Positions 21,424 through 25,063 of a stretch of 64,000 nucleotides of DNA are shown piece by piece. Both the position numbers and the translations under genes were made by a program. Numbering within the stretch: the stretch's first letter is position 1; every line of letters starts with the position of its first letter. The stretch is from Pseudomonas lutea (GTDB taxonomy: Bacteria > Pseudomonadota > Gammaproteobacteria > Pseudomonadales > Pseudomonadaceae): NCBI RefSeq assembly GCF_000759445.1, contig NZ_JRMB01000002.1:1860001-1924000 (forward strand), written 5' to 3'. The notes beneath the pieces were generated by a model. That model saw nothing but the letters and a program-made list of their open reading frames with translations, had not been told where the DNA came from and did not search any database.

Positions 21424-24189
21424 ATGAGTCTCGCGCCCCTCGTCCTGGTGGACGGTTCTTCTTACCTGTACCGCGCTTTCCACGCGCTGCCGCCGCTCAC
21501 GACCTCCAAGGGCCTGCCAACCGGTGCGGTCAAGGGCGTGCTCAACATGCTCAAGAGCTTGCGCAGGCAATATCCTGACAGTCCGTTTGCCGTGGTCTTT
21601 GACGCCAAGGGCGGAACGTTCCGCGATGAGCTGTACGGCGAGTACAAAGCCAACCGCCCGAGCATGCCGGATGACATGCGCGTGCAGATCGACTTCCTGC
21701 ACAACTGCGTCAGAGGCCTGGGCTATCCGCTGTTATGCGTTGAAGGTGTTGAGGCCGACGATGTGATCGGCACACTGGCGCGCAGTAGTGCGGCGGCGGA
21801 TCGACCGGTGGTGATCTCGACCGGCGACAAGGACATGGCGCAATTGGTCGACGGCCACATCACGCTCGTCAATACCATGACCGGCAGCGTGCTGGACGTT
21901 GCCGGAGTGAAAGAGAAATTCGGCGTCGGGCCCGAGCACATCATCGATTACCTGGCATTGATGGGCGACAAGGTCGACAACATTCCTGGCGTTCCCGGCG
22001 TGGGTGAGAAAACCGCGGCGGGCCTGCTGGTCGGCATCAATGGAGGTTTGAAAGAGCTCTACGACAACCTCGACAAGATTCCGGCATTGCCGCTTCGGGG
22101 GGCCAAGTCGTTGCCCGCCAAGCTGGAAGAGCATCGGGAGATGGCCTTCCTCTCCTACCAGCTGGCGACCATCAAGATTGACGTGCCGCTGGACATCGAG
22201 CTCGACGCTCTGCATTGCGGCGAGCCTGATCGGGAAGCGTTGATGGCGCTGTATACCGAGCTCGAATTCAAAAGCTGGATCACCGACCTGCAGCGTGAAG
22301 CGCGAGAAGAAGGCGCCGAAATTGTGCCTGCTGCCGAGCCGGCGCCGATCATCGAGGCCAAATACGAACTCATTCTTGAGCAGACGCAGTTTGACGACTG
22401 GTTGATGAAGCTTGAGGCGGCGCAGTTGTTCGCTTTCGTGGTGCAGAGCAATGGGGTAGATGCACAGCGCGCTCAAATCGTCGGGCTGTCCTTCGCGATC
22501 AAAACCCACGAGGCGTGTTACATCCCGCTCACCCATTCTTATATGGGTGTGCAGCAACAGCTCGATCGTGATGAGGTGCTCAAAGCCGTCAAGCCAATGT
22601 TGGAAGACGCGAGCAAGATCAAAGTCGGGCAGCACGCCAAGTTTGCCATCAACCTTTTGGCCAACTGCGCCATCGACGGCGACCAGAGCCAGGGCATCGA
22701 CGTCCAGGGCGTCAAATTCGACACGATGCTCGAATCCTACGTGCTCGACTCTACGGCGACGCGCCATGACCGTGACAGCCTCGTTGCCAAGTACCTGGCT
22801 CACACGCCGGTCAACTTCCAGGACATCGCAGGCAAAGGCGCGAAACAGCTGAGTTTCGACCAGATCGCACTGGAGCAGGCCGGCACCTACGCAGCTGAAG
22901 AGGTGGACCTGACGCTGCGTTTGCACGAGGTGCTGCAAGAGAAGCTGGCCAAGACGCCGACTCTGGCGCCGGTGCTCGACGATATCGAAATGCCGCTCAT
23001 GCCTGTGCTGGCGCGTATAGAACGGCAAGGCGCGCTGGTCGACGCCAACCTGCTGGGCAACCAAAGCGTCGAGCTGGGCAACAAGATGACCGAGCTTGAG
23101 CGCGAAGCGTTTGCCATCGCCGGTGAGGAATTCAACCTCGGCTCGCCCAAGCAACTCGGTGTGATTCTTTACGAAAAGCTTGGCATGCCGATCATCAGTA
23201 AAACCGCCACCGGCCAGCCGTCAACGGCTGAAGCGGTGCTCGCGGAACTGGCCGAGCAGGATTATCCGCTGCCCAAGGTGCTGATGCAGTACCGCTCGAT
23301 GAGCAAACTGAAAAGCACCTACACCGATCGACTGCCGGAACAGATCAACCCGCGCACCGGCCGAATCCACACCTCCTATCATCAGGCGGTGGCGGTCACC
23401 GGGCGTCTGTCGTCCAGCGACCCAAACCTGCAAAACATCCCGATTCGCACGGCCGAAGGCCGCCGCATTCGGCAGGCATTCGTTGCCCCGGCGGGCTACA
23501 AGCTGCTGGCAGCGGACTACTCGCAGATCGAGTTGCGGATCATGGCGCATCTGGCCAAGGACGAAGGTTTGCTGCATGCCTTCCGCAACGACCTGGACGT
23601 ACACCGTGCGACGGCGGGCGAGGTCTTCGGCGTCGAGTTACCTGACGTGACCAACGACATGCGCCGCAGCGCCAAGGCGATCAACTTCGGCCTTATCTAT
23701 GGCATGAGCGCATTCGGGCTGGCCAAGCAGATCGGCGTCGATCGCAAGCAATCGCAGGCGTATGTGGATCGCTATTTCGCGCGCTACCCCGGCGTATTGA
23801 ATTACATGGAGCGCACGCGGACTCAGGCTGCCGAGCAAGGTTATGTCGAGACCATCTTCGGTCGCCGCTTGTACTTGCCGGACATCAATGCCAAGAACCA
23901 GGCGTTGCGCAAAGGTGCCGAGCGCATGGCAATCAACGCACCAATGCAAGGCACGGCGGCCGACATCATCAAGCGCGCAATGGTCGCCGTGAACGGATGG
24001 CTGGACGCTTCAGGTCTGGATGCGCGGGTCATTCTGCAAGTGCACGACGAATTGGTTCTGGAGGTGCGCGAGGATCTGGTCGAGCAGATCAGCCAGGACA
24101 TCCGCGTACACATGAGCGGCGCGGCCGAGCTGGACGTGCCGCTGTTGGTCGAAGTGGGCGTAGGCAATAATTGGGATGAGGCCCACTAG
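21424..24189 (+). CDS. polA: DNA polymerase I with degenerate 3'-5' exonuclease site
   Basis: 921 residues from ATG 21424. The 5' nuclease domain (residues 1-290) and polymerase domain (540-921) look intact: FDAKGGTFRDELY, VEADDVIG, STGDKDMAQLV; then ADYSQIELRIMAHL, RRSAKAINFGLIYGMS and QVHDELVLE. The 3'-5' exonuclease domain keeps its fold-type spacing but the four metal ligands of E. coli Pol I are replaced: Asp355 by Val339, Glu357 by Gln341, Asp424 by Ala408, Asp501 by Glu493. Tyr497 is kept (Tyr489). Proofreading should be absent while nick translation and synthesis remain. Confidence 0.96.
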   Translation: MSLAPLVLVDGSSYLYRAFHALPPLTTSKGLPTGAVKGVLNMLKSLRRQYPDSPFAVVFDAKGGTFRDELYGEYKANRPSMPDDMRVQIDFLHNCVRGLGYPLLCVEGVEADDVIGTLARSSAAADRPVVISTGDKDMAQLVDGHITLVNTMTGSVLDVAGVKEKFGVGPEHIIDYLALMGDKVDNIPGVPGVGEKTAAGLLVGINGGLKELYDNLDKIPALPLRGAKSLPAKLEEHREMAFLSYQLATIKIDVPLDIELDALHCGEPDREALMALYTELEFKSWITDLQREAREEGAEIVPAAEPAPIIEAKYELILEQTQFDDWLMKLEAAQLFAFVVQSNGVDAQRAQIVGLSFAIKTHEACYIPLTHSYMGVQQQLDRDEVLKAVKPMLEDASKIKVGQHAKFAINLLANCAIDGDQSQGIDVQGVKFDTMLESYVLDSTATRHDRDSLVAKYLAHTPVNFQDIAGKGAKQLSFDQIALEQAGTYAAEEVDLTLRLHEVLQEKLAKTPTLAPVLDDIEMPLMPVLARIERQGALVDANLLGNQSVELGNKMTELEREAFAIAGEEFNLGSPKQLGVILYEKLGMPIISKTATGQPSTAEAVLAELAEQDYPLPKVLMQYRSMSKLKSTYTDRLPEQINPRTGRIHTSYHQAVAVTGRLSSSDPNLQNIPIRTAEGRRIRQAFVAPAGYKLLAADYSQIELRIMAHLAKDEGLLHAFRNDLDVHRATAGEVFGVELPDVTNDMRRSAKAINFGLIYGMSAFGLAKQIGVDRKQSQAYVDRYFARYPGVLNYMERTRTQAAEQGYVETIFGRRLYLPDINAKNQALRKGAERMAINAPMQGTAADIIKRAMVAVNGWLDASGLDARVILQVHDELVLEVREDLVEQISQDIRVHMSGAAELDVPLLVEVGVGNNWDEAH

Positions 24190-24289: not shown

Positions 24290-24418
24290 CGAATGGCTGA
24301 AGCAGCCATTCAAGCTCCTATGTTGTGTTAAGTGTTGGCAGATATCCGGAACCCTTCCGAGGGGGCTGGACTTAGACCCCGAACTTCCCCTCCCCACATG
24401 AAGTCCGGGGTTTTTTTT
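24290..24418 (+). ncRNA. ersA: ErsA-like (Spot 42-position) small RNA
   Basis: The polA-engB gap is where E. coli encodes Spot 42 and P. aeruginosa encodes the envelope-stress sRNA ErsA. Here an AlgU promoter is followed by a 9-bp stem-loop at the predicted 5' end (GAATGGCTG-AAG-CAGCCATTC, 24291-24311), an unstructured middle, and a terminator hairpin (CCCCGAACTTC / GAAGTCCGGGG) with eight T residues ending at 24418. The terminator loop CCCTCCCC is C-rich and could pair with ribosome binding sites, as for ErsA. Predicted length is about 128 nt, against 132 nt for ErsA as I recall. Confidence 0.88.
24377..24418 (+). terminator. Terminator of the ErsA-like sRNA
   Basis: An 11-bp stem with one A-C mismatch, a 12-base loop rich in C, and a run of eight T. 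It forms the 3' end of the sRNA. Confidence 0.88.
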
Positions 24419-24427
24419 GCCCGCGAT

Positions 24428-25063
24428 TCAAGCCGCGGGCGCCTTGTCTTCCAGCTCCATCCAGTCCGCCAGCACGGTGTAGGCCTCTTCGAGCCCCATG
24501 CGCTTGGGCGCGGAAAACAGCTGAATGGTGACGGCGTCGCCCCAGCCACGATGGATCTCCGACTGGACCTTGAGCAGCGTATTTTTAGCGGCACCAAAAG
24601 TCAGTTTGTCCGCCTTGGTCAGCAGAATGTGCATCGGCATGCCGCTGGCGATGGCCCAGTCGAGCATCAGCAGGTCGAAGTCGGTCATCGGGTGGCGAAT
24701 GTCCATCATCAGGATCAACCCCTTCAGACTCTCGCGGCTGCCCAGATACGCTTCGAGGTGGCGCTGCCAATGCTGCTTGAGCGGAATAGGCACCTTTGCG
24801 TAACCATAACCCGGCAAATCGACCAAACGGCGGTCATCGTCCAGGCTGAAGAAATTCAGCAGCTGAGTACGCCCTGGTGTCTTTGAGGTTCGCGCGAGAC
24901 TGGCGTGAGTCAGGGTGTTCAGCGCGCTGGACTTGCCCGCGTTGGAGCGGCCGGCGAAGGCGACTTCAAAGCCTTCGTCGTCCGGGCATTGATCGACTTT
25001 GGCAGCGCTGAGCATGAACTTGGCTTGTTGGCACAGGCCAAGAATTGGGTTTTTGAGTTGCAT
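24428..25063 (-). CDS. engB: Ribosome biogenesis GTP-binding protein EngB (YihA/YsxC)
   Basis: 211 residues. G motifs are in order: G1 [10 protein letters not shown]2 [10 protein letters not shown]3 [10 protein letters not shown]4 TKADK and a G5-like FSA. An essential GTPase for large-subunit assembly. Its position opposite polA is conserved across gammaproteobacteria. Convergent with the sRNA; only 10 bp separate its stop from the sRNA T tract. Confidence 0.96.

Follow-up and report, generated by a model that had tools for sequence, protein, structure and literature searches.

The polA gene of Pseudomonas lutea encodes a DNA polymerase I (Pol I) in which all four metal ligands of the proofreading 3'-5' exonuclease have been replaced. 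The gene lies on the forward strand at positions 21424..24189 of the window, which is the whole 64,000-nucleotide stretch of contig NZ_JRMB01000002.1 analysed here, and its product is 921 amino acids long. The exonuclease domain is predicted to be unable to bind the two catalytic metals and probably lacks exonuclease activity. Loss of the site characterises a clade and has happened more than once; it is no peculiarity of a single strain, since relatives share the substitutions. Pol I proofreading is probably dispensable in these bacteria, and the domain would survive as a scaffold.

The site was mapped by a PDB alignment of the window protein to the E. coli Klenow fragment 1kln_A, which is itself mutant at site 355. 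The E. coli residue numbers follow PMC3121766 and PMC6457538, and those of the window protein start from the Met at the ATG at 21424. Asp355 corresponds to V339 (codon GTG, 22438..22440), Glu357 to Q341 (CAG, 22444..22446), Asp424 to A408 (GCC, 22645..22647) and Asp501 to E493 (GAG, 22900..22902), all on the forward strand. The equivalent of Tyr497 is preserved as Y489. A proofreading site of the DEDDy type has D355, E357, D424 and D501 plus Y497, and this one has V, Q, A and E plus Y. A preliminary description of this DNA had named the same four replacements, with numbering and coordinates that the Klenow alignment confirms. D355A/E357A is cited as inactivating the Klenow exonuclease in PMC6457538.

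The remainder of the protein looks like an ordinary Pol I. The reading frame is open from the ATG to the stop codon at 24187-24189, so the gene has no frameshift, as described earlier. Pfam finds, in a single chain on the forward strand, PF02739 and PF01367 (5' nuclease, 21439..22236), PF01612 (DnaQ-like exonuclease, 22363-22947) and PF00476 (family A polymerase, 23050..24180, 540 bits). NCBIfam NF004397 identifies DNA polymerase I at 1165 bits, against a cut-off of 720. A PolA1 has a 5' nuclease, a 3'-5' exonuclease-like domain and a family A polymerase in one chain, along with polymerase motifs A and C; all of these are found, the motifs as DYSQIELR and QVHDELV. Both strings occur in 160 of 160 Pseudomonas PolA sequences, and so do the 5'-nuclease strings YKANRP, EADDVIGT and TGDKDMAQLV, which bears out the earlier statement that the motifs of these two domains are intact. 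Four longer exact strings vary among the same 160 sequences, in intact and dead groups both.

The exonuclease domain, 22348..22986 as modelled, retains a Klenow-like fold in a predicted model of that domain alone. A full-length AlphaFold2 model was poor (predicted local distance difference test 69.9, predicted template modelling score 0.41) and was left unused. An exo-inactivated PolA1 combines substituted DEDDy residues with a retained fold. The window protein has the first in its sequence and the second in its predicted model.

An intact fold could also mean that excision persists, by way of shifted ligands or a one-metal mechanism. Tyr497 is retained in most dead sequences, and E501 could in principle bind metal. 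However, window PolA has no carboxylate at 355, 357 or 424, and the faster evolution of the domain, described below, speaks for a real loss. There is also the precedent of Helicobacter pylori, whose Pol I lacks D355, D424 and D501 and is reported in PMC3121766 to have no exonuclease or proofreading. Residual activity is highly improbable.

An artefact of the strain or of sequencing is very unlikely as the cause, because the identical pattern V,Q,A,Y,E (sites 355, 357, 424, 497 and 501) recurs across many assemblies. It is present in 28 of 164 Pseudomonas PolA sequences, one of which is from the window's own genome (L002).

The intact pattern D,E,D,Y,D is found in 102 of these 164 sequences, and a DNA pattern for AFDTETT (motif I) in 301 of 398 Pseudomonas genomes. 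The statement in the preliminary description that other Pseudomonas keep the site is right for most of the sequences read. Among 80 named loci, which are the best of a larger set, 57 read D,E,D,Y,D and 23 otherwise; named and unnamed sets may overlap in species, and the counts are not rates.

Losses with V355 fall into two sets. The best 30 PolA matches in the 398-genome sample, the window included, all pair V355 with Q or K at 357. The combination of V355 and a lost E357 characterises a clade of P. graminis, P. syringae, P. avellanae and P. viridiflava types. Named relatives with V355 and Q or K at 357 include P. graminis (the closest named polA to that of the window, at 96%), P. syringae pv. 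cilantro, P. avellanae, P. californiensis and P. viridiflava. The second set, 21 sequences of what is called here the mandelii type, has V355 with E357 and D501 retained, and E424 in 19 of the 21. Its members are P. mandelii, P. frederiksbergensis, P. lini and others, with one strain each labelled P. brassicacearum and P. fluorescens. The preliminary description would have been contradicted by related species that carry the same substitutions and show activity. Half of this objection applies, as relatives do have the substitutions, but the faster evolution of the domain, described below, points to a real loss.

Of the 97 genomes in the sample without the AFDTETT pattern, 63 show a V355 pattern roughly 1 kb from the start of polA; by type these divide into 30 graminis/syringae and 33 mandelii genomes. 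Thirty of the other 34 were read: three have V355 (G160, G305, G326), two have other losses, and 25 are intact, 23 of these as FDSETT. The two other losses are separate single-genome events, with R357 and V501 in G192 (row L156), and K357 and E501 in G356 (row L161). This puts the predicted exonuclease-dead genomes at 68 of 394 classified, with four unclassified and 326 counted as intact, 301 of the latter by the motif I DNA pattern alone, with D424 and D501 read in part only.

Outside Pseudomonas, PolA was read in 34 of 36 other families from the order, the remaining two having yielded fragments only. Because 31 of these 34 keep all five residues, the ancestral state was most likely an intact site, which is lost now and then. 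The three other families without the ligands (L199 in G064, L200 in G063 and L202 in G092) have quite different substitutions, and L202 aligns with gaps.

Within the graminis/syringae clade the site appears to have decayed in order. A full-length PolA tree of 154 sequences has V355 with Q or K at 357 at the base, then E501, and A424 last. The deepest sequences of the clade (L052, L053, L055) keep D424 and D501, with F in place of the tyrosine at 497. E501 is found in the viridiflava type, and in the graminis and syringae types it is joined by A424. Sequences of one site state form clades with a support of at least 99 on this tree. The ligands would therefore have fallen stepwise, 355/357 before 501 and 501 before 424, which places the window protein at the last step.

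The placement of P. viridiflava is discordant within polA, and recombination inside the gene is possible. DNA of the exonuclease domain joins syringae and graminis (support 99), and a pairing of syringae with viridiflava is rejected by it (p 0.007), while the 5' nuclease and polymerase domains weakly favour the latter pairing (71). Since the placement differs between parts of the gene, A424 may go back to a single loss or to a segment that was shared.

The two V355 clades most likely lost the site in parallel, going by three comparisons. The mandelii-type clade (support 99) is nested among intact relatives when the tree is built from the 5' nuclease and polymerase domains. With 48 sequences, a single V355 clade is rejected by these domains, its log-likelihood being 110 lower (approximately unbiased test, p-AU 5e-53). 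Secondly, the only derived exonuclease residues that the clades have in common, and that are absent from intact sequences, are V355 and N359. Lastly, the synonymous difference between the clades (pS) is not reduced in the exonuclease domain, at 0.57 against 0.51 and 0.55 in the rest of the gene, although these values are near saturation. Trees from 3 kb flanks had long branches and were left unused. On a tree of 69 sequences, the starred branches force at least four changes of the intact label. This means at least four losses in the genus, provided that lost ligands are never regained.

A single loss is also conceivable, with the dead exonuclease segment moved between the two clades by recombination. 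Taken alone, the exonuclease domain is compatible with it: a tree that holds the V355 clades together lies 6.2 log units above the free search (p-AU 0.70), and a conversion tract of about five codons would bring both V355 and N359. Against this stand the same three comparisons, the strong separation by the 5' nuclease and polymerase domains, the mere two residues in common, and the synonymous difference, near saturation as it is. Recombination as the single source finds no support beyond two codons in them, and it is improbable.

Tempo was measured with the five site columns excluded, either as the share of PolA substitutions that fall in the exonuclease domain, or as the ratio of exonuclease to remaining substitutions relative to a baseline. 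The baseline share, outside the dead clades, is 0.225. On the stems it is 0.71 for graminis/syringae and 0.62 for mandelii, or 8.5 and 5.7 times the baseline ratio. In the crowns it comes down to 0.335 and 0.310 (1.74 and 1.55 times), and for the two single-genome losses it is 0.45 and 0.40 (2.9 and 2.25 times). For the domain, the ratio of nonsynonymous to synonymous change (dN/dS) is 0.108 within the graminis/syringae clade and 0.071 within that of the mandelii type. Since the substitution share is raised and dN/dS is still low, constraint would have fallen once catalysis went, and yet the domain was not abandoned.

Some of these data fit poorly with relaxed constraint. The mandelii value of 0.071 is about that of its intact siblings (0.069), a poor match to pure relaxation after a burst on the stem. 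Nor are the dead clades raised above the full set of closer intact pairs, where dN/dS is 0.239 for the exonuclease and 0.149 for the polymerase domain; that set mixes distant groups, for which reason the comparison with siblings is preferred. Of the branches outside the dead clades that carry 8 or more substitutions, 141 in all, one exceeds the stems, with an exonuclease share of 0.85 of 12.6 substitutions. Finally, V355 and N359 recur jointly in both clades, beyond what drift alone would be expected to produce.

Such data could be taken to mean that the dead domain took on another function, like DNA positioning or protein binding, after a brief period of rapid change. The burst on the stems followed by dN/dS at the level of intact siblings would fit, and so would the identical V355/N359 pair in two lineages. 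But the crowns are still at 1.55-1.74 times the baseline ratio, structural upkeep accounts for the constraint equally well, and no partner or motif was found, in what was not an in-depth search. Recruitment is doubtful. A slightly better chance, though still a small one, is given to a repeated adaptive switch, in which both clades would go through the shared V355/N359 change and a burst of remodelling, after which the domain would be under renewed constraint because of a new task in lagging-strand or repair synthesis.

The genome of the window (5.64 Mb in 5 contigs) has one match to a family A polymerase, and this is polA itself; no second family A polymerase, an intact PolA included, was matched there. 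The same genome (G000) has DnaQ with DTETTG, HNAAFD and HGALLD, as well as MutS, MutL and Pol II; the search for DnaQ, MutS and MutL covered this one genome. Pol II is present in 58 of 59 Pseudomonas genomes searched, exonuclease-dead and intact alike. The idea that Pol II is gained or lost in compensation was considered and set aside: no association was seen, and the motif I pattern is intact in G041, the sole genome without Pol II.

In E. coli, a Pol I that no longer proofreads gives a lagging-strand mutator, according to work cited in PMC3121766. The preliminary description had named a raised mutation rate as one possibility here, the other being tolerance of the loss. A raised rate is unsupported, given that DnaQ, MutS, MutL and Pol II are present and that fourfold sites of polA stand at 0.386 in the mandelii type against 0.368 in intact siblings, a small difference in a weak one-gene test that is compatible with a mutator effect.

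Loss may also have been selected, if an exonuclease-dead Pol I is better at extending mismatches or bypassing lesions under ultraviolet or oxidative stress. This has been proposed for the Pol I of H. pylori and Bacillus subtilis, and PMC12926913 and PMC3121766 link an inactive Pol I exonuclease to translesion synthesis. That the loss is repeated, with a burst of exonuclease change on both stems, fits as well. No strong long-term mutator is evident, however, as far as the weak fourfold test goes, and selection for the loss is unlikely.

The preferred reading, dispensable proofreading with a retained scaffold, would run as follows. The protein is a true Pol I, with 5' nuclease and polymerase judged to be working by their motifs, and a proofreading domain without metal binding. 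With fidelity secured by Pol III and its DnaQ, by Pol II and by mismatch repair, selection would no longer have kept Pol I proofreading. The site would have been lost in the ancestor of the P. graminis/P. syringae-group clade and again, independently, in that of the mandelii type. With the first ligands gone, the remaining ones and the rest of the site could drift in steps. The domain would be retained because it is part of the folded Klenow scaffold, and it may still contact DNA. Most Klenow variants without the exonuclease domain are poorly soluble according to PMC6457538, which is a possible reason for keeping a dead one.

It is hard to find out across phyla why the proofreading site is dead in about half of bacterial Pol I. 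In Pseudomonas, culturable species that are closely related carry alleles ranging from intact through half-decayed to dead, which makes for a natural experiment in a tractable genus. Such alleles, together with the inferred sequence of losses, allow direct tests of the effects on mutation rate, on strand bias and on lesion bypass. Proofreading by Pol I should not be taken for granted when replication and repair are modelled in the P. syringae and P. graminis groups.

Downstream of polA, an ErsA / Pseudomon-1 small RNA (RF01719, 109 bits) lies at 24312-24426 on the forward strand. It sits between polA and a convergent GTPase gene at 24428-25063 on the reverse strand, which is presumably engB.

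Exonuclease-dead Pol I is not new. About half of bacterial PolA1 are of this kind, and the Pol I of Thermus and B. stearothermophilus type are exonuclease-dead. The loss in Pseudomonas looks recent, stepwise and repeated inside one genus, and comparable losses are known in other phyla. The word Pseudomonas is absent from the main text of PMC12926913. No account of Pol I exonuclease loss in the genus was found in the literature searched, though the supplementary tables of that paper may include some of these species. This is no new kind of system, and it is the graded, repeated loss in one genus that is useful and, within the literature covered, undescribed.

From E. coli Pol I and its Klenow fragment, the window protein differs in lacking all four metal ligands. 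With the PolA2 / APEX proteins of Actinobacteria it shares an eclipsed exonuclease domain. According to PMC12926913, PolA2 is confined to Actinobacteria and has no 5' nuclease domain, whereas the window protein is a full Pol I with its 5' nuclease present and P. graminis as its nearest named polA. Its sequence puts it alongside exo-inactivated Pol I from other phyla, and it most likely functions as they do. Like those of H. pylori and B. subtilis, it has the same Pol I architecture, intact 5' nuclease and polymerase motifs, substituted DEDDy ligands and a retained, here predicted, fold. Unlike exo-inactivated PolA1 elsewhere, the Pseudomonas loss is stepwise and repeated in a genus whose sampled members mostly keep the ligands.
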